Positions 1-14,933 of a stretch of DNA of 38,863 nucleotides are shown here, piece after piece. Origin of the DNA: Candidatus Rokubacteria bacterium CSP1-6 (GTDB lineage: Bacteria; Methylomirabilota; Methylomirabilia; Rokubacteriales; CSP1-6); contig LDXP01000018.1 of the NCBI GenBank assembly GCA_001443385.1, positions 1 through 38,863 of the forward strand. The letters are read 5' to 3'. Below the pieces are notes generated by a model. That model searched no databases, was not told the origin of the DNA, and saw nothing but the letters and a program-made list of their open reading frames with translations. Position numbers and translations under genes: made by a program. Position 1 is the stretch's first letter, and every line of letters starts with the position of its first letter.

Positions 1-899
1 AAAACGAACCCCCCGCCCTCCCGCGGCCGGTCGATCGTCCACCCGGTGAAGCAGCGGGCGACCTCGACCACGTCCTTCTGGGTGTAGCCCCCGTCCACCC
101 CGAGCGTGTGGAGCTCCATCAGCTCGCGGGCATAGTTCTCGTTGAGCCCCTTCGGGCCCTTGCCCCCGGGCCGGCTGGGGAAGTCGCTCTTCACGCTCAT
201 CCAGTTATCCAGATAAAAGAGCATCGCCGGGTGGCGGGCCGTCGCCAGGACCAGGTCCCTGAACTTGCCGAGGGCATGGGGGCGGATGGCGTCCCGCTCG
301 TAGGAGACGAGCATCCACTTCACCGCCCCCTTCCCCGCGAACACGTTGAAGTGGTTGAACCAGAAGTCCACCATGACCTCTTCCAGCTGCCGCTCGCTCT
401 CGATGGCCCGGATCAGTTTGGCGGACTGGAGCTCCCCGATGATCCGGATGGGGCGCTTCTCCGGTGGGAACATCTCCATCATCTCGGCCCGGCTCAGCTC
501 GCCGGTGGCGATCTTCTGGCGGAGCTTCGGGTCGGGCTGGGGGAACTCCCTCATCAGCTCCGCGCTGGTCATGGTCAGGGTCGTCAGGTTCTTCAGCTTC
601 TGCTCCACCGCCCGGTCGGGGATCGCTTCGGGGTAAAGCTGCTGCTGAAGGTAGGCGGCGAGCCCCATGCCCTCGACCCGCTCCACGTCGCCGGGGCGGG
701 GGCCGTAGCCGAGACGGTTCAGGACGTGGAGGATTTTCTGCTCCTCCATGAGCGGCGATGCGGGAAGGGTGATCTGGACAGCCGCGGGAGATGAGGCCGA
801 GACACCCGGGGGAGGCGCCGCGGCCGTCACCCCCGACCAGGCCGCTAGGGCGAGGACCCCCAGGGAAGCCAGCGTCACACGAAGCCAAGTTCGGGCCAT
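1..899 (-). CDS. DUF1800 family protein, partial (3' end outside window)
   Basis: The reading frame opens with ATG at 899 and runs off the left edge, giving about 299 codons. Residues 1-28 look like a signal peptide (basic start, then a Leu/Ala-rich core ending near an Ala-Ala-Ala stretch), so the protein is probably exported. Diagnostic DUF1800 (PF08811) segments are visible: FWFNHFNVF, LNENYARELMELHTLG, and ARCFTGW close to the window edge. Function in the family is poorly defined; its genes usually sit beside a DUF1501 gene, which would lie outside the window. The start lies 57 nt beyond the stop of the alcohol dehydrogenase gene on the same strand, so co-transcription is possible but not shown. 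Confidence 0.9.
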   Translation of the reverse strand, partial: MARTWLRVTLASLGVLALAAWSGVTAAAPPPGVSASSPAAVQITLPASPLMEEQKILHVLNRLGYGPRPGDVERVEGMGLAAYLQQQLYPEAIPDRAVEQKLKNLTTLTMTSAELMREFPQPDPKLRQKIATGELSRAEMMEMFPPEKRPIRIIGELQSAKLIRAIESERQLEEVMVDFWFNHFNVFAGKGAVKWMLVSYERDAIRPHALGKFRDLVLATARHPAMLFYLDNWMSVKSDFPSRPGGKGPKGLNENYARELMELHTLGVDGGYTQKDVVEVARCFTGWTIDRPREGGGFV

Positions 900-956
900 C
901 TCCACCCTCCTTGGCCGGTTAGACGGGGGCGTGTCTCCCCTTGTTTACACTTCCGC

Positions 957-1961
957 CTAGGGGATGACGGCGACTTTGATGGACTCGGGGGAGCGGTGGG
1001 CGGCGAACGCTTCCTGGATGGCGTCCAGGGCGAAGCGGTGGGTCACCAGCGCCTCCACCTTCACCGCGCCGGCCTTGAGCAGCCGCATGGCCTCGGGGAA
1101 CTCGTCTTGATAGATCATCGAGCCCAGGAGCGTCAGCTCCCGCCTCACCACCCAGAAAAAGTGAACCCGGGAGGGCTCGTGAGGCAGTCCGGTCAGGACC
1201 ACGCGGCCGCCGGGGCGCGCGAGCTCCAGGGCCTCCTCCACGGCCTCCGGGGTCCCCGCGGTCTCCACGACGAGATCGACCCCCTCGCGCCCTGAAAACT
1301 TGCGCGCCGCTTCCGCCCCGGGACCGGTCGTAAGGCTGTGAACCGCCTCGGCGCCGAGCTCTCGGGCCAGGGACAGCCGCCGGTCGCTCCGGCTCACGGC
1401 CAGGACGCGCGCGCCCCGCGCTTTCAGGACCTGTACGGCGAGAAGCCCGAGCGTGCCGGCCCCCAGCACCGCGGCGGTCTCTCCCTGCCGCACGGCGCCA
1501 CGCCCGGCGGCACGAACCACGACAGCGAGGGGCTCCGTCAGCAGGAGCTGCTCGGGGCGAAGGCCCGGAGGCGCCGGCCAGCAGCAGCGCGCGGGGATCC
1601 GCGCCAGCTCGGCGAACCCCCCGTCCACGTCGATGCCCACGGCGGTCCGCGACAGGCAGAGGTTCCGGTTTCCCTCGCGGCAGAGGGCGCAGGCGCCGCA
1701 CGAGTAGTTGGGCTCCACCGCCACGGCGTCGCCGGGCTTCACGTTGAGGACGCCGGGTCCCACCGCAACCACGTCCCCGATGAATTCGTGGCCCATGATC
1801 AGCGGGTACCGGACCGGCCGATCGCCGGCCCAGATGCGGAAGTCGGTCCCGCAGAGCCCCGCCGCCCTGACGCGGACGAGGGCCTGGCCGGCCGACGGCG
1901 CCGGATCCGTCGCCGCTTCGACGCGCAAGTCTCTGGGGGCGCGGAGGACTGCCGCTTTCAT
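957..1961 (-). CDS. zinc-dependent medium-chain alcohol dehydrogenase
   Basis: A 334-residue NAD(P)-dependent MDR alcohol or polyol dehydrogenase. The catalytic-zinc Cys is in GLCGTD (about residue 37) and the GHE motif follows in IMGHEFIGD. The structural-zinc lobe has the four-cysteine pattern CGACALCREGNRNLC (about residues 93-107). The Rossmann nucleotide-binding motif is GAGTLGLLAVQ (about 167-177). It is the last gene of the run beginning at 9314 and starts 9 nt after the CoA-transferase stop. That context suggests it oxidises an alcohol, or reduces an aldehyde, arising from the acyl-CoA pathway encoded upstream. The substrate cannot be read from sequence; sorbitol/threonine-dehydrogenase-like enzymes are the closest style. 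Confidence 0.9.
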   Translation of the reverse strand: MKAAVLRAPRDLRVEAATDPAPSAGQALVRVRAAGLCGTDFRIWAGDRPVRYPLIMGHEFIGDVVAVGPGVLNVKPGDAVAVEPNYSCGACALCREGNRNLCLSRTAVGIDVDGGFAELARIPARCCWPAPPGLRPEQLLLTEPLAVVVRAAGRGAVRQGETAAVLGAGTLGLLAVQVLKARGARVLAVSRSDRRLSLARELGAEAVHSLTTGPGAEAARKFSGREGVDLVVETAGTPEAVEEALELARPGGRVVLTGLPHEPSRVHFFWVVRRELTLLGSMIYQDEFPEAMRLLKAGAVKVEALVTHRFALDAIQEAFAAHRSPESIKVAVIP

Positions 1962-1970
1962 GGGGCCACT

Positions 1971-4430
1971 CTACCTGAGCACGCCTTCGGCGATCAACTG
2001 ATGGACCTCGGGCCCGCTCATGCCGAGAAGCTCGCCGAGGACCTCCTGGGTATGCTCGCCCAGGCACGGCGCGCGGCGCAGCCGCCCCGGCGTCCGGGAA
2101 AACCGGAACGGCCACGCCTCGTACGGGGCGCGGCCGATCTCGGGATGCTCGATCCACTGGAACGCGCCGCGAGCGGCCAACTGCGGATCCTTGTGGAGGT
2201 CGGCGCAGGACTGGACGACGCCCGCCGGAATGCCGAGCCGCTGGAGGCGCCGGGCCAGGGCCCGGGCTTCCTGGGCGATGGTCCACCGTCCGATCAGGCG
2301 GTCCAGTTCCTCCGCGTTGCCGCGCCGCGCCTCGGGCATGGCGAAGTCGGGCCGCCCGCACCACTCGGGCTTCCCCATCGCCCCGCAGAGCGCCTGCCAC
2401 TCGGCGTCGTCCCCGCAGGCGATGACGCACCACTGGTCGCTGCCCGCGCACGGGTAGGCGTTGTGAGGGGCCGCCCGATCATCCGCGTTGCCGCGGCGCG
2501 CCGTCACTCTGCCGTTGACGGTGAAGTCGAGAATCGCCGGGGCGAGGAAGTGCAGACTCGCCTCGAACTGGGAGAGGTCCACGTGCTGGCCCTCGCCCGT
2601 CCGGCGTCGGTGATCCAGCGCCGCCAGGAGCGCCGCCGAGGCGAAGTGATGGGCGACGAAGTCCGTGTAGGCGCCGTAGATCATAGACGGCTCCCTGTCG
2701 GGCCAGCCGGTGACCGCGTAAAAACCCGCGAGGGCCGCCGCCAGGGAGCCGTAGCCGGCGTAGTGGGAATGCGGGCCGGTCTGCCCCTGCTGGCACGTGG
2801 AGAGCAGGATGATGTCCGGCTTGAGCGCCTTGAGGTCGGCGTACCCCAGCCCCCAGCGGGCCATAGTGCCGGGCGTGAAGGACTCCACCACCACGTCGGC
2901 CCGCGCACTGAGCCGGCGGGCGATCTCCAGGCCCCTGGGATGGGAGAGGTTGAGCGCCACCGAGCGCTTGCAGGCGTTGTAGTTGGCGAAGAGCTGGCTC
3001 CGGTTGGGCCCCGCCTCGCGGTCCGCCCACGGCGGCAGGGTCCGGCCGGGATCGATGCGGAGCGCCGACTCCAGGCGGATCACGTCGGCGCCGAACTCGG
3101 CCAGGAGGCGACCGGTGATCGGCCCCGTGGCCACCCACCCGAAGTCGAGCACGCGCAGGCCCGCGAACGGCGGCGCCAGCACGTGAGGGGCCACCCACGG
3201 TCCGCCGGGGCCCGCCTGCCACTCGGCGAGGACTTCGGCCGTCTGCTCGCCGATGGTCGGGGCCGGCCGTTGCTTGACGATCGGCGTCAGGCTGAACCTG
3301 GCGAACGGGCCGGGACCCACCGCCGGCCCGTCCGCCCCGCGCCGCCCCAGGGGCAAGAAGAACTCCCGGGCCGCCAGCTGGGCGTTCTCCAGCAGATCTC
3401 GCGTGTCCGCCACCGGAGCGAGGAGGATACCGCGCTTCAGCGCCCCCTCGTACAGCTCCCGCTTCGTCTTTTGCGCGAAGAAGGCGGCCGCGGCGGCCTC
3501 GACCTCATCCAGTTCCGCCTGCCCCCGCTCGCCGGAGGCCAGGAGGTGGGCCGAGTCCCAGGCGCGCCAGTCCCGCTCGCGCATGAAGGCCGGCGCCGTC
3601 CCTTCCTCGTCCATCCAGGCCGTGAGGGCCTCCATGGCCCCCGCCCCGATGGCGCCGCCGCTGGCGATCAGCGCCACGTAGCCGTCGGCGCCGGCGAAGA
3701 TGATCCGCCGCCGAAACCCCGCGTAGCGGGCGTGGACGCCGTCCCGAAACGGAACGTAGCCGTGGAGGCTCGGCAGCCCCGTCTCGCTCATCATCGCCCA
3801 CATCATCGCCGCCTGGGCCGACACCTCGACCCACTGCCCCTCGCCCGTCTGCTCGCGCCAGTGATGCGCCACGAGCGTGCCCACGGCCGCCTGACCCGCC
3901 GCTTGGAGGTACGCCTGCGGAACGCCGATCCGCACGGGAGGCCGATCGCCATCGCCCAGGTGAAACATCATCCCGCTCATCGCCTGGACGATGAGGTCCG
4001 GCCCCTTCCAGTCCCGGTAGGGACCGGTGTGGCCGAACGGGCTGATGGACGTCAGGATGAGGCGCGGGTGGTCCCGGTGGAGCGCCTCCCAGCCGAGGCC
4101 GAGGCCATCCAGGTAGCCGGGGGGAAACGACTCGAGGAGGAAGTCGGCCCGCCGGGCGAGGTCGCGCACCCGGGCCACACCCTCCAGCGTCCCCAGATCC
4201 GCCACCAGGCTCCGACAGTTCTCGGCGTACGCCCACCAGTAGAGGCTTCGCTCGGGATCCGGCGCGTCGCCCGCGAAGGGGCCCTCGCGCCGGGCCGGAT
4301 TTCCCGCGGGAGGCTCGACCCGCACGACGTCGGCGCCGAGATCCGCCAGGATCTTCCCGCACAAAAGGCCGCGGGCGTCGGTCAGGTCCAGAACCCGGTA
4401 GGCCGCCAGCGGCCCGCTCGCCTGCGTCAT
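1971..4430 (-). CDS. tandem (fused) family III CoA-transferase, CaiB/BaiF type
   Basis: At 819 residues this is twice the usual ~400. Two complete CoA-transferase III domains (PF02515) lie head to tail: residues ~8-405 (opening YRVLDLTDARG) and ~420-819 (opening LRVLDFGWVATGP). Each has its own TGEGQ loop. In domain 2 the family's catalytic Asp, which forms the acyl-aspartyl anhydride, is present as Asp590 (GAYTDFVAHH). In domain 1 the aligned position, 21 residues before TGEGQ, is Tyr174 (PQAYLQAAG), so this half is probably inactive or structural. Family members are interlocked dimers, so the fusion may act as a built-in heterodimer. The gene starts 12 nt after the selenoprotein stop. Substrate is unknown. 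Confidence 0.93.
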   Translation of the reverse strand: MTQASGPLAAYRVLDLTDARGLLCGKILADLGADVVRVEPPAGNPARREGPFAGDAPDPERSLYWWAYAENCRSLVADLGTLEGVARVRDLARRADFLLESFPPGYLDGLGLGWEALHRDHPRLILTSISPFGHTGPYRDWKGPDLIVQAMSGMMFHLGDGDRPPVRIGVPQAYLQAAGQAAVGTLVAHHWREQTGEGQWVEVSAQAAMMWAMMSETGLPSLHGYVPFRDGVHARYAGFRRRIIFAGADGYVALIASGGAIGAGAMEALTAWMDEEGTAPAFMRERDWRAWDSAHLLASGERGQAELDEVEAAAAAFFAQKTKRELYEGALKRGILLAPVADTRDLLENAQLAAREFFLPLGRRGADGPAVGPGPFARFSLTPIVKQRPAPTIGEQTAEVLAEWQAGPGGPWVAPHVLAPPFAGLRVLDFGWVATGPITGRLLAEFGADVIRLESALRIDPGRTLPPWADREAGPNRSQLFANYNACKRSVALNLSHPRGLEIARRLSARADVVVESFTPGTMARWGLGYADLKALKPDIILLSTCQQGQTGPHSHYAGYGSLAAALAGFYAVTGWPDREPSMIYGAYTDFVAHHFASAALLAALDHRRRTGEGQHVDLSQFEASLHFLAPAILDFTVNGRVTARRGNADDRAAPHNAYPCAGSDQWCVIACGDDAEWQALCGAMGKPEWCGRPDFAMPEARRGNAEELDRLIGRWTIAQEARALARRLQRLGIPAGVVQSCADLHKDPQLAARGAFQWIEHPEIGRAPYEAWPFRFSRTPGRLRRAPCLGEHTQEVLGELLGMSGPEVHQLIAEGVLR

Positions 4431-4442
4431 TCCGCGTGGGCT

Positions 4443-5234
4443 CTACGCCTCTGCCGGTTCGTGGAAGGCTTCCTCTTCCCAGGAGTCCGTCGGATCGTCC
4501 TCGCGCCACCGGACGGGGACGCGGAGCAGGGTCCCGCCCTCTGTCGCGGTCTCGAGCAGTCGGAGCGCCTCCTTGAGGATCGCCCGCTGACCCACCGGGT
4601 TGTCCGGCTTCCCGCACTGATGGCCGAGGGGAAAATTGACAAACACCGCGCGCGGCGGCCTCAGCAGGGTCGTGATGTCGAGCGCCGAGGACATGGAGAC
4701 CGTCGGGAGCCCGGCCTCCTCGAAGACTCGCGCCATCAGTCCCACGGACTGGTGACAGAGCTGTCAGACGGGAACCAGCAGCGCGGCATCCACCGCCAGA
4801 GCCCGGAGCCGCTCGAGGAGCGCCGGGGCCATCTCCTTCTGGAGGCGAGTACGCATGAAGATCCGCCCCATGAAGGTGAAGGCCGGCGAGGCCAGCTCTC
4901 CGACGAATCCCTCCGCCGCCAGCTCCCTGAGGCGCGAGACCGGGAAGACCGTGTTGACGTCGGTGACCGCCTTGGCGTTCTTCGAGAAGTGGCTGATCCT
5001 GAGATCCCGAGGATCGACGTCGGTGGGAATCTCCCGCCAGGTAAGGTCGTTCTTCACGTCGTCGAAGGGCGCCTGGTCCTTTCGATAGACGCCGCTCGAT
5101 GAGAGGAGCGCGATCCGGCACCGGGAAAGCGGCTTGGGCAGCGGCGTCAACGGGCTCGTCTCGTAGGTGGACCATTGATACGGCGGGTGATCGGGAAAGT
5201 GCAGCCGCACCTGCTCGATATAGCGAACCGGCAT
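4443..5234 (-). CDS. GrdB/PrdB-like reductase, selenoprotein with UGA = Sec157
   Basis: The frame from ATG 5234 to TAG 4443 encodes 263 residues with a single in-frame UGA at 4766-4764. Both sides read as one protein of the glycine/sarcosine/betaine/proline reductase selenoprotein B family (PF07355): before it FTFMGRIFMRTRLQKE and ALLVPV; after it QLCHQSVGLMARVFEEAG, then RAVFVNFPLGHQCGKP. Decoding UGA as selenocysteine gives U-Q-L-C, a redox U-x-x-C motif. A hairpin suited to a bacterial SECIS follows. The start has a good SD (AGGGGAG). The gene sits 22 nt after an SDR and 12 nt before a CoA-transferase, so it is probably an operon reductase with a thiol or carbon-heteroatom substrate. Ordinary gene callers would split it. 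A pseudogene is the alternative, but the conserved frame argues against it. Confidence 0.88.
4737..4766 (-). promoter_or_regulatory. candidate bacterial SECIS hairpin and Sec UGA codon
   Basis: On the minus strand the UGA at 4766-4764 is followed, after 18 nt, by a hairpin. The arms CAGTCC (4751-4746) and GGACTG (4742-4737) pair perfectly around the loop GTG (4745-4743), and A-U and C-G pairs extend the stem beyond one mismatch. A G at the start of the apical loop about 16-37 nt after UGA fits the general bacterial SECIS model. This is a by-eye fold; SelB binding is inferred. Confidence 0.6.
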
Positions 5235-5256
5235 GTCGTGGCTCCCCTGAGTGTCG

Positions 5257-6018
5257 TCAGGCGGCGCTGTGGCCGCCGTCGAGATAGATCGTCTGCCCGG
5301 TCATGAAGTCGGAGGCGGGCGACGCCAGGTACACGGCCAGCGGGCCGATCTCCTCCTCGCGCCCCGTCCGTCGCAGAGGAATGTCTCGGAGCAACCGCTC
5401 CCTGAGCTTCTCGTTCGCAAAGGCATGGGCGTTCATGTCGGTGACGAACCAGCCCGGCGCGATCGCGTTGACCTGGATGTTGTGGCGGGCCCACTCCACC
5501 GCCAGCGTCCGCGTGAAGGCAACGATGCCGCCCTTCGTCGCCGAATAGACCGCGTAGTGCGGGAGCCCCACCGCCGCCAGCATCGAGGCGACATTGATGA
5601 CCTTCCCGCGCTTGGCCGCCAGGAAGTGGGGGGCCGCGGCCCGGCAGCCGTTCAGGACGCCCGTCAGGTTGGTCTCGAGCATCCGACTCCATTCCTCCGG
5701 CGGCCCCTCCGCGAAGGGTCCCACGTGCGCCACGCCGGAATTGTTGACGAGAATATCCAGGCGACCCAGGCCGGTCACGGCCCGCCCCATCAACGCCTCG
5801 ACTTCGGCGAGGATCCGCACGTCGGTGGGCACCACCAGCGCCCTGCGGCCCAGCCTTTCCACTCGATGCGCCGTCTCCTCCAGGTCGGGCTTGGAGCGGC
5901 CGGCCAGGGCGAGGTCTCCCCCCGCCTCGGCCAGGGCCAGCGCCATGGCCCGCCCCAGGCCGCGGCTCGCCCCCGTGACGACGGCGACGCGCCCGTCCAG
6001 TCGCAGCGTCTCAAGCAT
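5257..6018 (-). CDS. SDR family NAD(P)-dependent oxidoreductase
   Basis: A classical short-chain dehydrogenase of 253 residues. It has the cofactor motif TGASRGLGRA near the N-terminus, the structural NNSG (variant of NNAG) near residue 91, and the catalytic Ser-Tyr-x3-Lys set in NVASMLAAVG and YAVYSATKGG. The C-terminal substrate loop begins NAIAPGWFVTDMN. The start overlaps the acyl-CoA ligase stop by 8 nt, and the stop lies 22 nt before the selenoprotein start, so translation is probably coupled. It probably acts on a hydroxy- or keto-acyl intermediate of the pathway. It belongs to the FabG/gluconate 5-dehydrogenase-like branch; the substrate is not determinable. Confidence 0.92.
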   Translation of the reverse strand: MLETLRLDGRVAVVTGASRGLGRAMALALAEAGGDLALAGRSKPDLEETAHRVERLGRRALVVPTDVRILAEVEALMGRAVTGLGRLDILVNNSGVAHVGPFAEGPPEEWSRMLETNLTGVLNGCRAAAPHFLAAKRGKVINVASMLAAVGLPHYAVYSATKGGIVAFTRTLAVEWARHNIQVNAIAPGWFVTDMNAHAFANEKLRERLLRDIPLRRTGREEEIGPLAVYLASPASDFMTGQTIYLDGGHSAA

Positions 6019-7801
6019 AGAGCGAGTCGATGATCTTCTGGAACTTCTCGGTCACGCCCTTCCGCTTCACCTTCAGCGTCGGCGTGAGGAGGCCGTTGTC
6101 CTGGGAGAATTCCTCTGGCAGGATCGCAAACTTCTTGATCTTGGCGTAAGACTGGAGATCGGCGTTCTTCGCCTCCACGATGCGGGCGACTCGCTCCACG
6201 ACCTTCGGGTTCTTGGCCAGGGACGCCGGGTCGGTGGCGAGGATGCCCTGCTCCTTGGCGAACTTCGCCAGCTCCTCGGGGTTGAGCGTGATCAGGGCCA
6301 CCGGGTACGGCCGCCGGTCCCCGTACACCATGACCTGGCTGACGAAGGGATCGCCCTTCAGGAGGTTCTCGATGTTCTGGGGGGCGATGTTCATCCCGCC
6401 CGCCGTCACGATCAGGTCCTTCTTGCGGTCGGTGATAAACAGAAACCCGGCCTCGTCGATCTTCCCGATATCGCCCGTGTGGAACCACCCGCCCGGCTCG
6501 AACACCTCGGCGGTGGCCTCGGGCTTCTTGAAGTAACCCTTGGTGGCGATGTTGCCGCCCCGGGCCAGAATCTCGCCGTCGGCGGCGATCTTCAGCTCGA
6601 CGCCGGGCATGGCCTGGCCGACGGAGCCAAACTTGAAATTATCCTCGCGGTTGAAGGTCAGGGCCGGGCAGGTCTCCGTGAGGCCGTAGCCCTCCAGGAT
6701 GAGGATCCCCGCCGCGTGGAAGAACACCGCGATCTCCCGGGAGAGCGGGGCCCCCCCCGACACCGCAAAGCGCAACCGCCCGCCGAGGGCGTGATGGAGC
6801 TTCGCGAACACCAGCTTGTGGGCGACCCTGTGCTTCATGGCCAGCCCGCCGGGGATCGGCTGCTTCGCCTGCTGGAGCTGGCTCACCTGCCGCCCGATCC
6901 CCATGGCCCAGCGGAAAATCTTCTTCTTCACGGGCGAGCCCGCCTCCACCCCCGCCAGAATCTTCGCGTACACCTTCTCGAACACCCGCGGAACGCTGCA
7001 GATGAAGTGCGGCCGGGTCTCCTTCAGGTTGTCCCCGACCTTGTCCAGGTTCTCGGCGAAGGCGGTGGTGAGGCCCCGGTGAACCCCGATGAACCCCTCC
7101 AGGCGGGCGAACGAGTGGGCCAGCGGGAGGAAGAGCAGATGCACGTCGCCCGGGCCGATCTTGATGATCTGGGCGGTGGAGTTCAAGGAGGCGAGATGGT
7201 TTGCGTGGGTCTGGACCACCCCCTTGGGCGGGCCCGTGGTTCCCGACGTGTAGACGATGGTGGCGATGTCGTCCGGGCGGCCCGACGTGACCCGATCCGC
7301 CAGAAGGCTCTTGAGCCGCTCCGCGTTGTCTCGCCCCAGGCGGCGCAGCTCCTCCCACGTGTGCACCGAGCGCTCCCGCCCCTCGTATCCCTGGATGACC
7401 ACGATCTGCTCGAGGGTGTCCATCTTGCCTCGGGCCTCCAGGGCCTTCGCCAGCTGGGCCGGGTCCTCGACGATGAGGGTCTTGGCGCCGGAGTCGCCGA
7501 CGATGTAGGCGAGCTGCTCGGGGGTGTACGAGGGGTACACCGGAATCGTCGTGCACCCGGCCGAGAAGATCGCGAAGTCCGCCTGCACCCACTCGGGGCG
7601 GCTGGCCGAGAGCAGGGCCACCGCCTCGCCCTTCTGCCGTCCCAGAGCCAGGAGCCCGAGGGCCACTTCCCGCACGGTCTCGCCGAGCTGGCGCCAGGTG
7701 AGCGTCTCCCACTTCCCCGCGCGCTTGACCTGCTGGGCAGGGGCGTCGCCGCTCTTGTCGATCCGGCTCCAGAACATCCGCGCCAGAGTGTCGTCAGCCA
7801 T
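6011..7801 (-). CDS. long-chain acyl-CoA synthetase (AMP-forming)
   Basis: A 596-residue AMP-binding enzyme (PF00501) of the FadD15/ACSL type, forming an acyl-CoA from a carboxylic acid, ATP and CoA. Visible motifs are the P-loop YTSGTTGPPKG (about 180-190), EGYGLTETCP (about 375), GWFHTGDIG, and the hinge region DRKKDLIVTAGG. The C-terminus lacks the shorter PxTxxGK-type ending of small ligases and matches the ~600-residue long-chain class. An AAGGAG ribosome site precedes ATG 7801, only 10 nt after the previous stop. It is the second ligase of the operon, implying at least two acid substrates or chain lengths. Confidence 0.93.
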   Translation of the reverse strand: MADDTLARMFWSRIDKSGDAPAQQVKRAGKWETLTWRQLGETVREVALGLLALGRQKGEAVALLSASRPEWVQADFAIFSAGCTTIPVYPSYTPEQLAYIVGDSGAKTLIVEDPAQLAKALEARGKMDTLEQIVVIQGYEGRERSVHTWEELRRLGRDNAERLKSLLADRVTSGRPDDIATIVYTSGTTGPPKGVVQTHANHLASLNSTAQIIKIGPGDVHLLFLPLAHSFARLEGFIGVHRGLTTAFAENLDKVGDNLKETRPHFICSVPRVFEKVYAKILAGVEAGSPVKKKIFRWAMGIGRQVSQLQQAKQPIPGGLAMKHRVAHKLVFAKLHHALGGRLRFAVSGGAPLSREIAVFFHAAGILILEGYGLTETCPALTFNREDNFKFGSVGQAMPGVELKIAADGEILARGGNIATKGYFKKPEATAEVFEPGGWFHTGDIGKIDEAGFLFITDRKKDLIVTAGGMNIAPQNIENLLKGDPFVSQVMVYGDRRPYPVALITLNPEELAKFAKEQGILATDPASLAKNPKVVERVARIVEAKNADLQSYAKIKKFAILPEEFSQDNGLLTPTLKVKRKGVTEKFQKIIDSLYA

Positions 7802-7811
7802 GATGGTCTCC

Positions 7812-9314
7812 TTAAATGAGTTTCCGTAGCTCCTTGCGGAGGATCTTGCCGACCGGACTCTTGGGCAGCGACTCCACGAAGCGCACCTGCTTCGGGCACT
7901 TGAACCGGGCGAGCTTCTCCGCGCAGAACGCCATCATCTCCTCGGCGTTCGCCTCCTGGCCTGCCTTCACCACGACGAACGCCAGGACGTCCTCCCCCAT
8001 CAAGGGGTCCGGCATCCCCACCACGCCCGCCTCGGCGACCTTCGGGTGGGCGTAGAGCACCTCCTCCACCTCGCGCGGGTAGATGTTGAAGCCCCCCCGA
8101 ATGATCAGGTCCTTCTTGCGCTCCACAATGTAGAGGTAGCCGTCTGCGTCCAGCCGGCCGACGTCGCCCGTGTGGAGGCACCCGTTTTTGAGCGTCTTCT
8201 GGGTCTCCTCGGGCATCCGGTAATACCCCTGCATGACGCTGGGCCCGCGAACGCAGATTTCCCCCACCGTCCCAGCGGGAAGCTCCCGGTCCTGGTCGTC
8301 AAGGATCTTCACCTCGACGCCGGGAATCGGCTTCCCGACCGAGCCCAGACGACGCTCCATGGACAGCCGGTGGGCCGACACGACGGTCGTGGCTTCCGTG
8401 AGCCCGTAGCCTTCGAGGATCCGCCCTCCAAATTTCTTCTCGAAGGGCTCGACGATCTCCAGAGGCAACGGCGCGGCGCCCGATCCCCAGTAGATCATGG
8501 ACGAGGTGTCGAACTGCTCGGCCCCCGGGTAATTCAGCAGGTACACGAGCATCGTGGGGACGCAGGACATGGACCGGATCCTGAACTTCTGAATCGTCGT
8601 GAGGACCTCCTCGGGGTTGAACCAGCGGAGCAGCACCCCGCGCGTTCCCAAGATGTTCCCGGCATTCATCACCGTGAGGCCATAGGAGTGGGACAGGGGG
8701 AGGACCGCGAGGGACCAGTCTTCCCGGGACAGCTCATGCAGGGAGGCGGCCGAGCGGGCGTTCGAGTGCAGGTTCCCGTGCGAGAGCGCGACGCCCTTGA
8801 TCTTCCCGGTCGTGCCGGAGGTATAGAGGATCACCGCCAGGTCCCCGTCCGCCCGCTCCACGATCCCGAAGGTGTCCGGCTGCCCCTTGACAAGCTCCGC
8901 CAGGCCGAGCGTCTGGTTCCCCTCCCCGTCCACGAGCACGACGTGGCTGAGGGTGGGCAGGGCGGCGATCAGCGGCTCCACCTTCCAGACCATGTCGGTG
9001 GAGGTGATGACGACCTTGGCCTCCGAGTCCACGAGGATGTGCCTGACCTCCTCGGGGCCCAGCAGGAAGATCACCGGAACGACGACAGCTCCCAGCTTCA
9101 GGATGGCGGCGTAGCTCTGGGGGACCTCGGGGCAGTTCGGGAGCATGACGACGACGCGGTCCCCCACCCCCACGCCCAGGCCCCGGAGGGCGTGGGCCAG
9201 ACGGTTGGCGGCGCGGTGCTGCTCCCGGTTCGTGTACTCCTTCCCCTCGAACAGCAGCGAGACATACTCGCCGTACTTTTCGAGGTTTTCCTCGCCCAGT
9301 CGCGCCAGGTTCAT
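7812..9314 (-). CDS. acyl-CoA synthetase, class I AMP-binding (medium/long chain or aryl acid)
   Basis: A 500-residue AMP-forming acid:CoA ligase. The P-loop is YTSGTTGKIKG, followed by EGYGLTEATTV, HTGDVGRLDADGY, and ERKKDLIIRGGFNIYP. The C-terminal catalytic Lys is in LPKSPVGKILRKEL. It is shorter than and clearly distinct from the downstream ligase, and resembles FadD3/fatty-acyl or 4-coumarate-type ligases. It is the first gene of the minus-strand operon running to 957. The 132 bp upstream form a divergent promoter region shared with the phasin gene on the other strand. No strong SD precedes ATG 9314 (the leader is AT-rich), and no obvious promoter was assigned to it. Confidence 0.93.
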   Translation of the reverse strand: MNLARLGEENLEKYGEYVSLLFEGKEYTNREQHRAANRLAHALRGLGVGVGDRVVVMLPNCPEVPQSYAAILKLGAVVVPVIFLLGPEEVRHILVDSEAKVVITSTDMVWKVEPLIAALPTLSHVVLVDGEGNQTLGLAELVKGQPDTFGIVERADGDLAVILYTSGTTGKIKGVALSHGNLHSNARSAASLHELSREDWSLAVLPLSHSYGLTVMNAGNILGTRGVLLRWFNPEEVLTTIQKFRIRSMSCVPTMLVYLLNYPGAEQFDTSSMIYWGSGAAPLPLEIVEPFEKKFGGRILEGYGLTEATTVVSAHRLSMERRLGSVGKPIPGVEVKILDDQDRELPAGTVGEICVRGPSVMQGYYRMPEETQKTLKNGCLHTGDVGRLDADGYLYIVERKKDLIIRGGFNIYPREVEEVLYAHPKVAEAGVVGMPDPLMGEDVLAFVVVKAGQEANAEEMMAFCAEKLARFKCPKQVRFVESLPKSPVGKILRKELRKLI

Positions 9315-9363
9315 AATTATTTCAATAGGTTAGGCTGCAGCGTTTCACGATACCATGCCCGCC

Positions 9364-9415
9364 ATAACGCACCGCGAAAAATCGCTTGACAGACATTGCC
9401 GCAGTGCGTTATCCT
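9364..9415 (+). promoter_or_regulatory. sigma70-type promoter of the phasin gene with a 9-bp inverted repeat
   Basis: A perfect -35 TTGACA (9386-9391) and a -10 TATCCT (9410-9415) are separated by 18 bp. A 9-bp inverted repeat, ATAACGCAC (9364-9372) and GTGCGTTAT (9404-9412), brackets the -35 and overlaps the -10, with arms 40 bp apart. A TGCCGCA palindrome (9397-9403) lies in the spacer. PhaR proteins are known to repress phasin genes at TGC/GCA-rich sites, so these are operator candidates. Confidence 0.65.
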
Positions 9416-9446
9416 GCCCCCAGACTCACACAAGGAGGTGCCGCAT

Positions 9447-9896
9447 ATGGCAACCACGAAGAAGGCAGACGAGATGTTCGGGCAGTTCACCGGCAAGGCC
9501 GTGGAGGCGCTCACGCTCTGGGCCGACGCCAACCAGAAGATCGTCCGCGAGCTGGTGGACCTCTCCGCCAGCACGGCCAAAGAAGGGGTCCGGCTATACG
9601 CCGAGCTTCAGTCCTCGGCCGTCGAGGCCGTGAAGGACGGGCAGGACTTCCTGCTCCGCCGGCAGGCCGAGTGGCAGGATCTCCAGAAGGATCCCGCCGG
9701 CTGGTACCAGAAGAATCTGGTCGAGGGGATCGAGGAGACCCAGAAGGCCTTCAAGCTCCTGGAGGGCAACGCCCAGGCCGTCACCCAGTCCGCCGAGCGG
9801 CTTCAGGCCTCAGCCGAGCAGGCGAGCAAGGAGATCCAGCAGACCTTCGCCAGCGTGGGCGGCAGGCTCAAGACGCTTTACACCCCGGCCAACTAG
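9447..9896 (+). CDS. phasin family protein (PHA granule-associated)
   Basis: A 149-residue, mostly helical protein. The start at ATG 9447 is fixed by AAGGAGG 8 nt upstream; an earlier in-frame ATG at 9396 lies inside the promoter and is rejected. The sequence shows phasin character: an N-terminal FGQFTGKAVEALTLWADANQ, then amphipathic helices rich in Ala, Glu and Gln (FLLRRQAEWQDLQKDP; AVTQSAERLQASAEQASKEI) and no membrane segment. Phasins coat PHA granules and control their number and size. It has its own promoter and terminator and stands opposite PhaR, its usual repressor. Assignment to a specific phasin Pfam family is not certain. Confidence 0.85.
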   Translation: MATTKKADEMFGQFTGKAVEALTLWADANQKIVRELVDLSASTAKEGVRLYAELQSSAVEAVKDGQDFLLRRQAEWQDLQKDPAGWYQKNLVEGIEETQKAFKLLEGNAQAVTQSAERLQASAEQASKEIQQTFASVGGRLKTLYTPAN

Positions 9897-9920
9897 GACA
9901 GCCGCTCCGACCAAGACCGG

Positions 9921-9957
9921 CCCCCTCACCTGTAGGGTGAGGGGGTCTTTATTTTTT
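9921..9957 (+). terminator. rho-independent terminator after phasin gene
   Basis: The perfect 10-bp stem CCCCCTCACC (9921-9930) / GGTGAGGGGG (9936-9945) has a 5-nt loop and is followed by the T-rich tract TCTTTATTTTTT. It lies 25 nt after the phasin stop and runs into the last codons of the convergent phaR. Its stem is identical to the outer arm of the interspersed palindromic repeats in this window. Confidence 0.85.
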
Positions 9958-10446
9958 CCGCTTCCTCGGGATTCGACGCTCGACCGCCCGGAGTTTCTCC
10001 TTCAGCGTAGCCACCTCCTCTCGGAGGCTCTCCGCCTTCGTCTTCTCCTCCCGACCCTTCCGGGCCTCAGGCTCCCGCTCCTTCGAGGGGAGCCAGCCCG
10101 CCTTCGAGGCCCATTCCCTGAAGACGCGATCGGCATCCCGCTGGCTCGTGATGATCCCTTCCAGGCTGGTGCGGAGCGATCGCTGGACGAAGTCCTGCCA
10201 GGCTTCCCCGTGCTTGATGAGCTGGTGGAGCAGGCCCGTCGGCAGCGTGGCCCGGTGGGCCCGCTCGTTCTCCAGGAGGATCTGCGCCAGCGTCACCGAG
10301 GTCAGATCCTCCCCGGTGCCCGCGTCCGTGACCCGGATCTCCTTGCCCGCGCGGATCATCTCCTCGAGCTCTTCGAGCGTCACGTAGCGGCTTTCCTGGG
10401 TATCGTAGAGCTTGCGGTTCGAGTAGCGTTTGATGATATAGGCCAT
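9949..10446 (-). CDS. phaR: polyhydroxyalkanoate synthesis repressor PhaR
   Basis: The 165-residue protein starts at ATG 10446 with the hallmark PHB/PHA accumulation regulator domain (PF07879): YIIKRYSNRKLYDTQ, then RYVTLEELEEMIRAG and TSVTLAQILLENE. A middle PHB_acc-like segment (GLLHQLIKHGEAWQDF) and a Lys/Arg/Glu-rich coiled-coil tail follow (about 125-165). An upstream in-frame extension to 10653 lies inside phaB and has no homology character, so it is rejected. PhaR binds DNA and PHA granules and represses phasin and often its own gene. It is divergent from phaB and convergent with the phasin gene, whose terminator overlaps its 3' end. Confidence 0.93.
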   Translation of the reverse strand: MAYIIKRYSNRKLYDTQESRYVTLEELEEMIRAGKEIRVTDAGTGEDLTSVTLAQILLENERAHRATLPTGLLHQLIKHGEAWQDFVQRSLRTSLEGIITSQRDADRVFREWASKAGWLPSKEREPEARKGREEKTKAESLREEVATLKEKLRAVERRIPRKRKK

Positions 10447-10503
10447 GGCGCGCTCCGGCGCAAGTCTAACACCCCGCGTCATTCCGGGCAAGGCGCCGTC
10501 TGC

Positions 10504-10518
10504 TATACTTGCGACGCA
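10504..10518 (+). promoter_or_regulatory. candidate -10 element and TGCG-A-CGCA palindrome in the phaR/phaB divergent region
   Basis: TATACT (10504-10509) is a good -10 for phaB, but no convincing -35 lies 16-18 bp upstream. Immediately after it is the palindrome TGCGACGCA (10510-10518), around the expected transcription start. Its TGC/GCA half-sites resemble the element in the phasin promoter, consistent with PhaR control. That link is inference. Confidence 0.4.
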
Positions 10519-10549
10519 CGAAAGATGCAGAACGTAATGGAGGAGTGCG

Positions 10550-11293
10550 ATGAAGCTCAAGGGCCGCACCGCTCTCGTCACCGGCGCCTCCCGCGGCATC
10601 GGCCGGGCGATCGCTCTGGCGCTTGCAGCGGAGGGGGCCGATGTGGCCGTCAACTACGTCTCGAGTGAAGGGCCGGCCAAGGAGATCGCCGAGCAGATCC
10701 AGAAGCTGGGGCGGCGGGCCATCCTGGCGCGGGCCGACGTCGGCGACTTCCCCGACACCTTCCGGATGGCCCAGGAGGTGCTGAAGGAATTCGGCCACCT
10801 GGACATCCTCATCAACAACGCCGGCGTTACGTCGGACATGACCTTCGTGAAGATGGACCACGCCTCCTGGCGGAAGGTTCTGGCGGTCAACCTCGACGGC
10901 GTGTTCAACTGCACGAAGGCCTTCATCGACCAGATGATCAAGCAGAACTACGGCCGCGTCGTGAACATCACCTCGGTGATCGGCCAGATCGGCAACTTCG
11001 GCCAGGCCAACTACGCCGCGTCGAAGGCCGGGGTGGCGGCGTTCACAAAGTCCCTGGCCAAGGAGCTGGCCGGCAAGGGCATCAGGGTCAACGCCGTGGC
11101 GCCGGGATTCATCGAGACGGAGATGATCGAGGCGATCCCCGAGAAGGTGCGGCAGCGACTCCTGGATCAGATCCCGCTGAAGCGCTTCGGCCGGGCCGAC
11201 GAGGTCGGCCGGGCGGTGGTGTACCTGGTCTCCTCGGACGGGGACTATATCACGGGAGCGGAGCTCTCGATCAACGGCGGCCTCCTGATGTAA
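10550..11293 (+). CDS. phaB: 3-oxoacyl-ACP / acetoacetyl-CoA reductase (FabG/PhaB type)
   Basis: A 247-residue SDR that reduces 3-oxoacyl thioesters with NADPH. It has TGASRGIGRAIALAL (residues 10-24), NNAGVTSDMTF, the catalytic Ser in NITSVIGQIGNFGQ, and Tyr/Lys in QANYAASKAG. The ending GAELSINGGLLM is typical of FabG/PhaB. The start has GGAGGAG 5-7 nt upstream. FabG and PhaB cannot be separated by motif alone; the position between phaR/phasin and a phaC/phaE operon favours supply of (R)-3-hydroxyacyl-CoA for PHA, hence the symbol. Its 3' end overlaps the convergent MaoC-like gene by 23 nt, so the two coding regions share antisense sequence. Confidence 0.85.
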   Translation: MKLKGRTALVTGASRGIGRAIALALAAEGADVAVNYVSSEGPAKEIAEQIQKLGRRAILARADVGDFPDTFRMAQEVLKEFGHLDILINNAGVTSDMTFVKMDHASWRKVLAVNLDGVFNCTKAFIDQMIKQNYGRVVNITSVIGQIGNFGQANYAASKAGVAAFTKSLAKELAGKGIRVNAVAPGFIETEMIEAIPEKVRQRLLDQIPLKRFGRADEVGRAVVYLVSSDGDYITGAELSINGGLLM

Positions 11294-11849
11294 GGCGAGG
11301 GCGGCAAGCGGCGAGGACGGAGAGGCCCAGGATTGCCCAGACGCTCAGCGCCTGGGCCGCCCAGGCCCACGGCTGAAGGGCCCAGAAGGCCAGCTCGCCG
11401 GCCCCGCTCTTGTCCTCGGCGTACACGATCTGGCTCTTCGGCGGAAGCACCCAGGCCTCGCCGGCCAAGACCTCTTCGCCCCGTTGATTCACGCAGATGG
11501 TCTGGAGCCGTACGCGGTTGCGCTCCCGGACGATCTCCAGCACCTCCACTCGCGCCGTGATGGTATCGCCCGCTCTCACGGGCTTCAGAAAGTGGAGATC
11601 CTGGGTCACGTAGATGCTCCCCGGCCCCGGGAGCCGCGTCCCGATCACGCCGGAGATCAACCCGGCCGTCCAGATCCCCGGAGCGATGGGGCCCCGGAAC
11701 GCGGTTGCGGCGGCGAAGACCGGGTCCGAATGCACCGGGTTGTGGTCCCCGACAGCGTCCACGAACTCGGCGATATCCTCTTCCGACACCACCCGCGAGA
11801 GCTCGGCCGAATCTCCCACCGACAGCTCATCGATCGCGCGTCCGATCAT
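11271..11849 (-). CDS. MaoC-like (R)-specific enoyl-CoA hydratase with C-terminal hydrophobic extension
   Basis: The ATG at 11849 overlaps the PhaE stop as ATGA, giving 192 residues. Residues 1-137 form a MaoC/PhaJ hot-dog domain with the hydratase dyad Asp35 and His40 in the motif D-x-N-P-x-H (VGDHNPVHSD), then GPIAPGIWTAGLISGV and LHFLKPVRAGDTI. PhaJ enzymes make (R)-3-hydroxyacyl-CoA from enoyl-CoA for PHA synthesis, which fits last place in the phaC operon. Unusually, the usual ~140-residue domain carries about 55 extra residues; positions ~153-182 are strongly hydrophobic with many Trp and Ala (WALQPWAWAAQALSVWAILG). This may be a membrane or granule anchor. Confidence 0.85.
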   Translation of the reverse strand: MIGRAIDELSVGDSAELSRVVSEEDIAEFVDAVGDHNPVHSDPVFAAATAFRGPIAPGIWTAGLISGVIGTRLPGPGSIYVTQDLHFLKPVRAGDTITARVEVLEIVRERNRVRLQTICVNQRGEEVLAGEAWVLPPKSQIVYAEDKSGAGELAFWALQPWAWAAQALSVWAILGLSVLAACRPRLTSGGRR

Positions 11850-12424
11850 TGAGCCACCCTGTCCGCGGCGCGCCGCGCGGCGGCCGCCTCGTGATCCGCC
11901 AGGGACTTGAAGAGATCGTCCATCCGCGCCATCAGCGCGCCCAGCCGGTCCTCCAGCCCCTCGATGCGATCTTCGAGGTCCACCACCTGGCGCGCGATCC
12001 CTACCACCTGAGTGCGGGAGGGAACGCCGAGCGCCTGGAGGGTGGCCTCGGTGGACTCTTCGGCGACCTTCTTGATCGGCGCCTGAAGCGACAGCCACTG
12101 GTCGAGGTACTTGCCCAGCACCTGGGCGAAGGCCTCCGTCCCCATGGCCTGTTCCAGCACCTTCTGCCAGGCGGCGATCCACTGATCCAGGAACTGTTTC
12201 CACTGCGTGAGGAGCTCGGGAGTGGGCGGCCCCTGGGTCAGGAGCTTGGACCAGGCGGCCATGCCCTGGTCCATGAAGGGCCGCCAGAACTGGAGCGGGT
12301 CCGGGGGTTGAGCCTGGCCGGATTGGCCGATCTGGCCCACCAGCCGGGCCCAGGCCTGCGTCCCTTCCTCGATCTGCTTCTTCCAGAGGTCGAACAGCGC
12401 CTGGGTGCTCGAGTTGTCTGCCAT
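11846..12424 (-). CDS. phaE: class III PHA synthase subunit PhaE-like
   Basis: The ATG at 12424 is chosen because GAGGTG precedes it by 6 nt; a GTG three codons upstream is part of that SD. The 192-residue protein is helical and rich in Trp and Gln, with repeated WxxFxDQxxAxW-like segments (FWRPFMDQGMAAW; QWKQFLDQWIAAWQKVLEQ) as in PhaE (PF09712). The conserved segment GVPSRTQVVGIARQVVDLE follows and then a coiled coil (DRIEGLEDRLGALMARMDDL, about residues 150-170). It is shorter than the ~350-residue Allochromatium PhaE and closer to compact PhaE/PhaR-like partners. PhaE activates PhaC, encoded directly upstream. A 77-bp palindromic repeat separates the two genes. Confidence 0.85.
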   Translation of the reverse strand: MADNSSTQALFDLWKKQIEEGTQAWARLVGQIGQSGQAQPPDPLQFWRPFMDQGMAAWSKLLTQGPPTPELLTQWKQFLDQWIAAWQKVLEQAMGTEAFAQVLGKYLDQWLSLQAPIKKVAEESTEATLQALGVPSRTQVVGIARQVVDLEDRIEGLEDRLGALMARMDDLFKSLADHEAAAARRAADRVAQ

Positions 12425-12472
12425 GGCCGTCACCTCATGCCTATCCTACCGCCTTTGACGCTCTGCGCCAAG

Positions 12473-12548
12473 CCCCCTCACCCTCCCCAACTCGGATGCC
12501 CCTCACCTCTTCTCCTCTCCCCAGGGGGGAGAGGTGGGGTGAGGGGGA
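12473..12548. repeat. interspersed palindromic repeat, copy 1 (phaC-phaE gap)
   Basis: Inner stem CCTCTCCCC (12514-12522) / GGGGAGAGG (12526-12534), flanked by CCCCTCACCTC and GGGGTGAGGGGG. An extra CCCCCTCACCCTCCCC precedes it. It occupies almost the whole phaC-phaE spacer. Confidence 0.85.
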
Positions 12549-12555
12549 GAATCCC

Positions 12556-13653
12556 CTACGACCGGGGCGCTAGCCAGCTCGACACCTTGGGCCAGCAGTG
12601 AACGGACGCCCCCCGGCCGGCGATGAGGGAGATGTGGCCCCCGGGCAGCTCCACGTAGCCCTTGTCGGTGCTCCCTACCGCATCGATCAGCGCCTTCACG
12701 CAGGCTGCTGGGGCAATGTAGTCCTCCTTGGCGCCCACGACGAAGACCGGGCACCGGATCTCCCCCAGCCGCACGGGCTTCCCCCCGAGCCGCAGCTCCC
12801 CCCGGATCATCCGGTTCTGCTGGTAAAACTCCTTCACCCACTGGCGGAAGAACTCGCCGGGGAAGGCCACGTACTCGTTCGCCCACTTGTTGAGCGCCTG
12901 GAACCCCTCCACATAGGAATCATTCCACAGGTTCCACCAGAGGTTCAGCCCCGTGGTCAGGTCCATGGTGGGCCGGAGGAGCTTGAAGCCGGCCTTCACC
13001 ATGTCGGCCGGTATCTGCCCCAGCGTGTCCACGAACTTGTCGGCGTCGAAGTACCTGGGGTCGAGCCACACGCCGAAGAGCCCCACCTTGGAGAAGTCGA
13101 TCGGTCCCGCCATGTTGACGAAGTTCTTCACCGGGACCTCCGGGTGGGTGGCGATGAAGCAGGCCGAGAGTGGGCCCCCCATGCAGTAGCCGAGCACGCT
13201 CAACTCCCGGGCGCCCGAGATTTCCAGCACCTTCCGCGCCATGCGCGGGAGGATGCGGGTCACGCAATCCTCCAGCGTGAGCCGGTTGTCCTCGGGGCCG
13301 AAAACGCCCCAGTCCAGGAGGTAGAAGTCGAAGCCCTCGCGCGTCATGTGCTCGATGAAGCTCCCGCCCGGGAGCAGGTCAAAGATGTACGGCCGGCTGA
13401 TCCCCAGGTTCGGAACGAAGAGGAGCGGGGTCCGGTATTTCCGCCTGGACTCGTAGCGGTAGAGGCGCGACTTGTTCTTCCGGTAGATCTCTTGCCGCGG
13501 CGTCGGCCCCACCGACGGCTCCTTCGGGTTCGCCACCATCTCGGTGAAATTCTTCATCCGGCCGAGGTTCCGCTGCAGCTCCTCCTGCCACTGGGCGATG
13601 ACCTCAGGATCCACCCGCGGTTCGTCGGTCACCATCGTGAAGCGATCGGGCAT
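12556..13653 (-). CDS. phaC: class III polyhydroxyalkanoate synthase subunit PhaC
   Basis: At 365 residues it matches class III PhaC (~355), not class I (~590). The alpha/beta-hydrolase active site is complete: Cys157 in the lipase-like box GYCMGG, Asp311 in GAKEDYIAP, and His340 in PGGHISL. The spacing equals that of Allochromatium PhaC (Cys149, Asp302, His331). Other family segments are LLFVPNLGISRPYIFDL, FDFYLLDWGVFGPED and LNLWWNLWNDSYVEGF. It polymerises 3-hydroxyacyl-CoA at the granule surface together with PhaE. The ATG shares its A with the stop of the upstream CoA-transferase (TGATG), so translation is coupled to a CoA-transferase. Confidence 0.97.
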   Translation of the reverse strand: MPDRFTMVTDEPRVDPEVIAQWQEELQRNLGRMKNFTEMVANPKEPSVGPTPRQEIYRKNKSRLYRYESRRKYRTPLLFVPNLGISRPYIFDLLPGGSFIEHMTREGFDFYLLDWGVFGPEDNRLTLEDCVTRILPRMARKVLEISGARELSVLGYCMGGPLSACFIATHPEVPVKNFVNMAGPIDFSKVGLFGVWLDPRYFDADKFVDTLGQIPADMVKAGFKLLRPTMDLTTGLNLWWNLWNDSYVEGFQALNKWANEYVAFPGEFFRQWVKEFYQQNRMIRGELRLGGKPVRLGEIRCPVFVVGAKEDYIAPAACVKALIDAVGSTDKGYVELPGGHISLIAGRGASVHCWPKVSSWLAPRS

Positions 13654-14933
13654 CAGAGCACCCCCTTGGTCTTGAGCTCGGCCAGCCGGCCCGGACCCAG
13701 ACCGAAGTACTTCGCGTACACGTGGGCGTTATGATAGCCGAGCGGGCGGCACGCCCACTTGAGGCGGGGCGGCGTCCGGGTCATCCGCCAGACCGGCATC
13801 TGGAGCAGCAGCGGTCCGTACACGGGGTCTTCCACCCTCCGGAAGCAGCCCCGCTCCCACCAGTGGGCCTCCGTCAGCACCTTGGTGGGCGGGTTCATCG
13901 GGCCGAACACGATGATTCCCGGGCCGGGATCGGCGAGCACCTTTTCCAGTATCTCATCCGAGCTGAAGTTCATCGACCATTTTTCGATCTCGTCCCTCAG
14001 GAGAACCTCGTTCTCGGGGTTGGTGCGCTGGAGGGTGGTGTTGAAGCGGGGGTCCTTGGCCAGCTCCGGTCGTCCCATGATCCGGCAGATTGCCTGGAAG
14101 TTCGGGTCGGTGTAGCCGGCGATGAAGGCGTAGCCATCCTTCACGCGGACGAAGGTGTAGGGGAAGACGGCCAGCTCGTAGAGCCCCGTGCGCCCCCTGA
14201 TCTGCCCCGTCGCGTGGTAGAGCAGCACCGTGTACTCGAGGTAGCGCATGAGCGCCTCGGCCCCCGACACGTCGATCATCTGGCCCTGGTTCGACGTCTC
14301 CCGCCAGTGGACGGCGGCCAGCACCGCCATGGACGCCCAGGCAGCCTGAGCGTAGGCGCTGATCCAGCTGCCGACGCGGACCGGCGGTGCGTCGGGATCG
14401 CCGGTGACGTGGAGCAGGCCGGAGAGCGCCTGATCCGTCAGGTCGTATTCGCGGAGCTGCCCCGGAGCGTCGGGCCCGAACTGGCCGTACGCCGAGCACG
14501 CGACGTAGATGAGCCGCGGGTTCACCTTCGCCAGGTGGCGGTAGCCCAGGCCCAGCCGGTCTAGGTAGCCGGGCTCGAAGCCCTCGATGAGGACGTCGGC
14601 GCGCGCCGCCAGACCCTTGAGCAGGCTGCGCCCGGCCTTCTTGTCGAGATTCAGCGTGACGCAGTACTTGTTCCGGGCCTCGGCAACGAACGCCAGGCCC
14701 GTGCCGTTGGCCGTCACGTCCGCAGGACCCCACCCCCGCATGGGATCGCCTCCGGGCGGCTCCAGCTTGATAACCTCGGCCCCAAGCTCGGCCAGATAGG
14801 TCCCGGTCAGAAACGCCCCGTAATGGCCCTGGGACACGTCCAGCACGACGAGGTCGTCCAGCGCCTCGGGCAGCTCGGAGACGCGCGCGGGATCCTCCTC
14901 GCGCTTGATCCAGTCGTACCAACGCTCGCTCAC
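13653..14933 (-). CDS. family III CoA-transferase lacking the catalytic Asp
   Basis: A GTG at 14933 overlaps the preceding stop as GTGA, giving 426 residues. An upstream in-frame extension to 15644 lies within the neighbouring gene and is rejected. CaiB-type features are LVVLDVSQGHYGAFLTG, YLAELGAEVIKLEPPGGDP, IEGFEPGYLDRLGLGY, and YDLTDQALSGLLHVTGDP. The position of the catalytic Asp is Ala193 (WISAYAQAAW), and the TGEGQ loop is degraded to TSNQGQ, so by itself it is probably not active. The upstream coupled paralogue has Asp193 at the aligned position, suggesting a heteromeric enzyme like known two-subunit members. It is coupled at both ends, into phaC downstream. Confidence 0.92.
   Translation of the reverse strand: MSERWYDWIKREEDPARVSELPEALDDLVVLDVSQGHYGAFLTGTYLAELGAEVIKLEPPGGDPMRGWGPADVTANGTGLAFVAEARNKYCVTLNLDKKAGRSLLKGLAARADVLIEGFEPGYLDRLGLGYRHLAKVNPRLIYVACSAYGQFGPDAPGQLREYDLTDQALSGLLHVTGDPDAPPVRVGSWISAYAQAAWASMAVLAAVHWRETSNQGQMIDVSGAEALMRYLEYTVLLYHATGQIRGRTGLYELAVFPYTFVRVKDGYAFIAGYTDPNFQAICRIMGRPELAKDPRFNTTLQRTNPENEVLLRDEIEKWSMNFSSDEILEKVLADPGPGIIVFGPMNPPTKVLTEAHWWERGCFRRVEDPVYGPLLLQMPVWRMTRTPPRLKWACRPLGYHNAHVYAKYFGLGPGRLAELKTKGVL

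Follow-up and report, generated by a model that had tools for sequence, protein, structure and literature searches.

The six-gene acyl-CoA cluster

The window analyzed here, a stretch of 38,863 nt, is one contig (C18) of the 2.9-Mb, 91% complete genome of a soil or groundwater bacterium. ORF analysis places six genes on its minus strand between positions 957 and 9314 (Table 1), with gaps of 10, −8, 22, 12, and 9 nt. Both the genes and the gaps had been listed in a preliminary description of this DNA and were matched exactly on re-derivation, and the acyl-CoA character it gave to the gene set agrees with the family assignments by profile. Ligase a, for example, reached 507 bits against PRK06187 in the profile search (cut-off 476), and the SDR is a candidate hydroxyacyl-CoA dehydrogenase. 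The spacing is suggestive of one transcript. A consensus scan of the minus strand from 850 to 9500 returned no sigma-70-like site, an absence that carries no weight.

Table 1 Features of the cluster and of the genes adjoining it (positions in the window)
Feature	Position	Strand	Remarks
Acyl-CoA ligase a	7812..9314	−	AMP-forming, PF00501 + PF13193; long-chain fatty-acid–CoA ligase subfamily
Acyl-CoA ligase b	6011..7801	−	PF00501 + PF23562, FadD11-like
Classical SDR	5257..6018	−	Gly motif from residue 16, YxxxK from residue 158
Stand-alone PrdB-type selenoprotein	4443..5234	−	GrdB superfamily, motif UQLC; optional cluster member
In-frame UGA, read as selenocysteine	4764..4766	−	TGA in 89/89 phylum loci examined
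SECIS apical stem-loop	4737..4751	−	CAGUCC-GUG-GGACUG; covariation, fold
Fused family III CoA-transferase	1971..4430	−	819 aa, two PF02515 domains; BbsE-like + BbsF-like halves
Zinc-dependent medium-chain dehydrogenase	957..1961	−	Threonine/sorbitol dehydrogenase-like; previously described as a zinc alcohol dehydrogenase
Phasin-like and polyhydroxyalkanoate regulator-like genes (names presumed)	9396..10653	+ (phasin-like, from 9396); − (regulator-like, to 10653)	Adjoin the cluster, not members

Polyhydroxyalkanoate-type genes lie by the cluster at 9396–13653, namely phasin-like, regulator-like, acetoacetyl-CoA reductase-like, MaoC, PhaE-like, and alpha/beta hydrolase genes. The names of the first two are ones we presume from general knowledge rather than from a profile match. 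These two, as a pair, and likewise the third are constant neighbors of the cluster in the window's genus (g1) and in two other genera (g15 and g17), with or without the selenoprotein. At the other end, a DUF1800 gene (3–749, minus strand) follows the cluster and is truncated at the contig end; genus relatives have at this place an alpha/beta hydrolase, a second SDR, or both.

Selenocysteine in the PrdB-type protein

The PrdB-type product is a genuine selenoprotein and belongs to the PrdB/GrdB superfamily. Its UGA position is TGA in all 89 PrdB-like loci of the phylum, and the aligned protein is conserved on both sides. A six-pair hairpin with the loop GUG is located twelve bases 3′ of the UGA. 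Among 85 distinct rows, pair 19–27 occurs as T-A (n = 41), A-T (n = 28), or G-C (n = 15) and pair 18–28 as G-C, C-G, or A-T, which are compensatory changes at both positions. Pairing is kept in 97.5% of cells, and covariation is 0.368 versus 0.070 when shuffled and about 0 when slid (20-row sample). The search for selenocysteine machinery, which covered SelB and tRNA-Sec, found both above cut-off (385 and 70.9 bits) on contig C69 of the same genome.

The alternative of a genuine stop codon in a broken gene has in its favor the codon itself and the window's hairpin, whose fold energy taken alone is ordinary (z −0.84). Against the same TGA in 89 loci, the conserved flanking protein, the covarying hairpin, SelB, and tRNA-Sec, its probability is negligible, and the earlier selenoprotein call is upheld.

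Family membership and the missing pyruvoyl subunit

PrdB-type proteins are among the commonest metagenome selenoproteins, with 235 in the GOS survey; in marine metagenomes they go under the name “proline reductase PrdB” (PMC2398784). The phylum itself is known to have a very large selenoproteome (PMC13188914). The window protein matches the GRDB superfamily profile PF07355 marginally, at 22.7–22.9 bits against the Pfam gathering score of 22, and is about 30–36% identical to annotated PrdB on plasmids. Against TIGR04483 (PrdB) it scores 154.1 bits, about half the curated equivalog cut-off of 300.

Besides UxxC, the residues D92, R169, E172, T178, P194, and R195 are invariant in the family alignment, which suggests a site for a substrate and not simply a redox motif. 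A sequence search of solved structures gave no credible relative of the selenoprotein and hence no substrate clue. An AlphaFold2 model of high confidence (pLDDT 91) gave nothing at E ≤ 0.001 in Foldseek and, in VIA-align, only common Rossmann-like arrangements (Z ≤ 8.1) that carry no substrate information.

The TIGR04483 and PF07355 scores and the UxxC motif could be taken to indicate a classical D-proline or glycine/sarcosine/betaine reductase. However, the former score is under its cut-off, the partners of the selenoprotein are acyl-CoA enzymes, and PF09338, the profile of the GrdE/PrdA pyruvoyl subunit, had no matches in the three genomes of the window's genus (91–93% complete), although it detects PrdA on a Terrisporobacter plasmid, used as positive control, and matches in 15 of 56 family genomes. 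With no pyruvoyl subunit found in the genus, we regard a classical D-proline or glycine reductase as very unlikely. The GrdE-like genes of those 15 genomes (L191–L196 and others), none of them in the window's genus, suggest that some Rokubacteria have glycine-reductase-type systems proper.

The fused CoA-transferase

The first half of the fused transferase matches chain A and the second half chain B of benzylsuccinate CoA-transferase BbsEF (PDB 9fn0). In place of the catalytic Asp, half 1 has Tyr; the residue is present in half 2 and in most transferases, and the two halves are therefore unequal in the way that characterizes the BbsEF type. The “double CoA-transferase” of the preliminary description is a BbsE plus BbsF arrangement in one chain. 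Its double family III nature stands, and its type, BbsE/BbsF, is a known one that occurs here in fused form; the idea that a fused CoA-transferase is unprecedented was dropped, since the halves match the chains of 9fn0. DddD, the DMSP transferase, may be another fused relative.

Another two family III CoA-transferase-like genes, adjacent to each other and each on a long branch, lie at 13653–16234 on the minus strand. The first is without the catalytic Asp at its column, and the two resemble an unfused BbsE/BbsF-type pair.

The cluster with and without the selenoprotein

The six genes recur in unchanged order, at 84–94% identity, in the two other genomes of the window's genus, which puts the arrangement beyond chance; the six-gene form was found only in this genus (3/3 genomes). 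In one of the two (G001), the SDR and selenoprotein genes are separated by 456 nt that carry an antisense DoxX-like ORF, which tells against calling co-expression almost certain, as the preliminary description did. A consensus promoter scan upstream of its selenoprotein gene returned nothing; a TTGACA is visible by eye.

Two other genera carry the cluster without the selenoprotein. A genome of the same family (G016, genus g15) has the order ligase-ligase-SDR-CoA-transferase-dehydrogenase at 80–86% identity, with the SDR stop 2 nt ahead of the CoA-transferase start and the same phasin- and polyhydroxyalkanoate-type genes adjoining. The third genus (G018, g17) has ligase b, SDR, transferase, and dehydrogenase in order at 68–79%, and an unrelated 149-aa ORF occupies the SDR/transferase junction. 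In the place of ligase a, G018 carries a thiolase followed by an apparent C-terminal remnant of ligase a (L104:14100–15401); thiolase and SDR together suggest a beta-oxidation-like route.

The acyl-CoA module of two ligases, SDR, fused BbsEF-type CoA-transferase, and zinc dehydrogenase thus exists without the selenoprotein in Rokubacteriota. Most likely, the selenoprotein gene was inserted between the SDR and CoA-transferase genes in an ancestor of the window's genus; we infer the direction of this event, gain in g1 rather than loss elsewhere, by parsimony. Since the other cluster genes persist without it, the selenoprotein is dispensable for their basic function.

These comparisons bear on the preliminary description, in which the operon was “built around the selenoprotein”, a view that we read as a dedicated catabolic pathway with the selenoenzyme as its central, obligate step. 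The tight gene spacing and the conservation in three of three genus genomes are in line with such a pathway, but G016 and G018 retain the other genes, in order and at 68–86% identity, without the selenoprotein, and the closest homologues of the latter (family f5, below) sit in unrelated surroundings away from acyl-CoA genes. The operon is accordingly not organized around the selenoprotein, and a dedicated pathway of this kind is very unlikely. The preliminary description had named lack of this gene order in related genomes as refuting it; the order was found within the genus (3/3) but not outside it, where the claim thus fails its own check.

Occurrence of the PrdB-like family

At E ≤ 1e-30, 65 of 95 phylum genomes contain a match to the selenoprotein; a genome-contig scan with it matched only the two other genus members, and the comparison was essentially confined to the phylum. 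The closest homologues of the window selenoprotein, at 62–64% identity, are a group of 12 loci in 12 genomes of family f5, which we take to be the Methylomirabilis-type family; these loci lie after clpC and usually before glyA. Other PrdB-like genes are located between sigma-factor/TetR-type genes and rplU-obg or among radical-SAM genes. One paralogous PrdB-like selenoprotein (L071), on contig C45 of the window's genome, is preceded by sigma-factor and TetR-type genes and followed by rplU and obg, an arrangement conserved in 14 loci of the family.

No adjacent same-strand transferase occurs at 37 of the 89 PrdB-like loci, namely those in the rplU-obg and radical-SAM contexts plus six outliers, nor at the 12 f5 loci, and the family must therefore have a wider role or several roles. 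Several of the transferase-less loci have unrelated neighbors, and two alphaproteobacterial plasmid homologues have no transferase neighbor.

Recurrent pairing with family III CoA-transferases

An adjacent, same-strand family III CoA-transferase within 200 nt is found in 25 of 89 PrdB-like loci versus 9 of 528 control genes, which were more distant genes of the same loci (Fisher p 7e-16, inflated by the relatedness of the loci). Collapsed to independent contexts, which we counted ourselves on the tree and in the lists of genes, the figure is about 5 of 17 (binomial p ~8e-6). Genes were called by a simple script that had learned codon usage from the window, with which single neighbors may be missed. 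Rokubacteria are rich in family III CoA-transferases, and some pairing is expected.

Seven changes of pairing label are needed on the PrdB tree. In the transferase tree, the partners are spread over five separate branches: a downstream group with 4-nt overlap (15 loci), L066/L068, L069/L129/L130 with an N-terminal B12-binding domain, L157/L160, and the window's fused form. Every paired transferase has the active-site Asp, which the fused form carries in half 2. In the 15 overlapping two-gene units the pair stays while the flanking genes vary. The L160 unit contains two acyl-CoA dehydrogenases and two enoyl-CoA hydratases, and in G012 an acyl-CoA dehydrogenase overlaps a PrdB-like locus by 2 nt. 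At L069 (3370–6605), as at L129 and L130, a B12-binding domain is fused to a family III CoA-transferase that precedes the PrdB-like selenoprotein and, in L069, directly follows a methylmalonyl-CoA-mutase large-subunit-like gene.

One half of the PrdB-like family thus pairs repeatedly with non-orthologous family III CoA-transferases, and the place of the window's selenoprotein beside a transferase is probably not accidental. The neighborhood comparison bears out the earlier suggestion that the selenoenzyme family goes with these transferases. No paper describing a selenoprotein/CoA-transferase pairing was found in the limited library searched.

The PrdB-like protein may instead be a general thiol/selenol redox protein whose insertion was neutral positioning, as could be argued from the cluster genes that occur without it, the family members in housekeeping contexts (clpC-glyA, rplU-obg), and the unrelated ORF in the same junction of G018. 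This we consider fairly unlikely, as transferase adjacency is far over the control rate in the same loci and extends to five transferase branches, and the invariant residues besides UxxC suggest a substrate site.

Proposed role

On balance, we lean slightly towards an acyl-CoA module which gained an optional selenol/thiol reductase working on the acids or CoA esters of the transferase. The ligase or the transferase would form a CoA ester, from which the UxxC selenol/thiol center would reductively remove a substituent near the carboxyl group. Sec would act as the nucleophile; a Se-S bond would then form and be reduced again by a thiol system, and the CoA thioester would provide the activation in place of the pyruvoyl group of glycine and D-proline reductases. 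The SDR and the zinc dehydrogenase may take the hydroxy/keto steps. We infer substrate, reaction, and electron donor from the neighborhood and from GrdB/PrdB chemistry.

More tentatively, the pairs of PrdB-like proteins and family III CoA-transferases might be an undescribed class of pyruvoyl-free selenoreductases in which the CoA thioester activates carboxylic acids for the reductive loss of a substituent, assembled several times around different transferases in Methylomirabilota, a proposal that is possible rather than probable. The pairing hints at an unrecognized selenium-dependent step in acid metabolism. D-proline reduction, the function usually quoted for PrdB-type proteins, requires a pyruvoyl partner, and the CoA-transferase pairing is a concrete lead on the role of some of these proteins. 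The overlapping two-gene unit is small enough for expression and assay.

Comparison with known systems

Like the window cluster, the carnitine (cai) and bbs operons combine a family III CoA-transferase with ligase, dehydrogenase, and hydratase neighbors; unlike the window, they include no selenoprotein to our knowledge. BbsEF (9fn0) consists of a chain A half without and a chain B half with the Asp, as do the window's halves, but in the window the two subunits are fused into one chain, and no benzylsuccinate pathway genes were seen beyond one SDR.

GrdB, the selenoprotein B of glycine/sarcosine/betaine reductase, is homologous to the window protein in its C-terminal part, including the Sec site. 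The window protein is without the N-terminal part of the ~430-aa GrdB, and a GrdE-type subunit was not found in the genus. With PrdB, the 26-kDa subunit of D-proline reductase, it shares PF07355, the UxxC motif, size, and Sec encoded by UGA and SECIS (PMC2398784). It differs from PrdB in that the PrdA/pyruvoyl partner was not found in the genus and in that it adjoins acyl-CoA enzymes.
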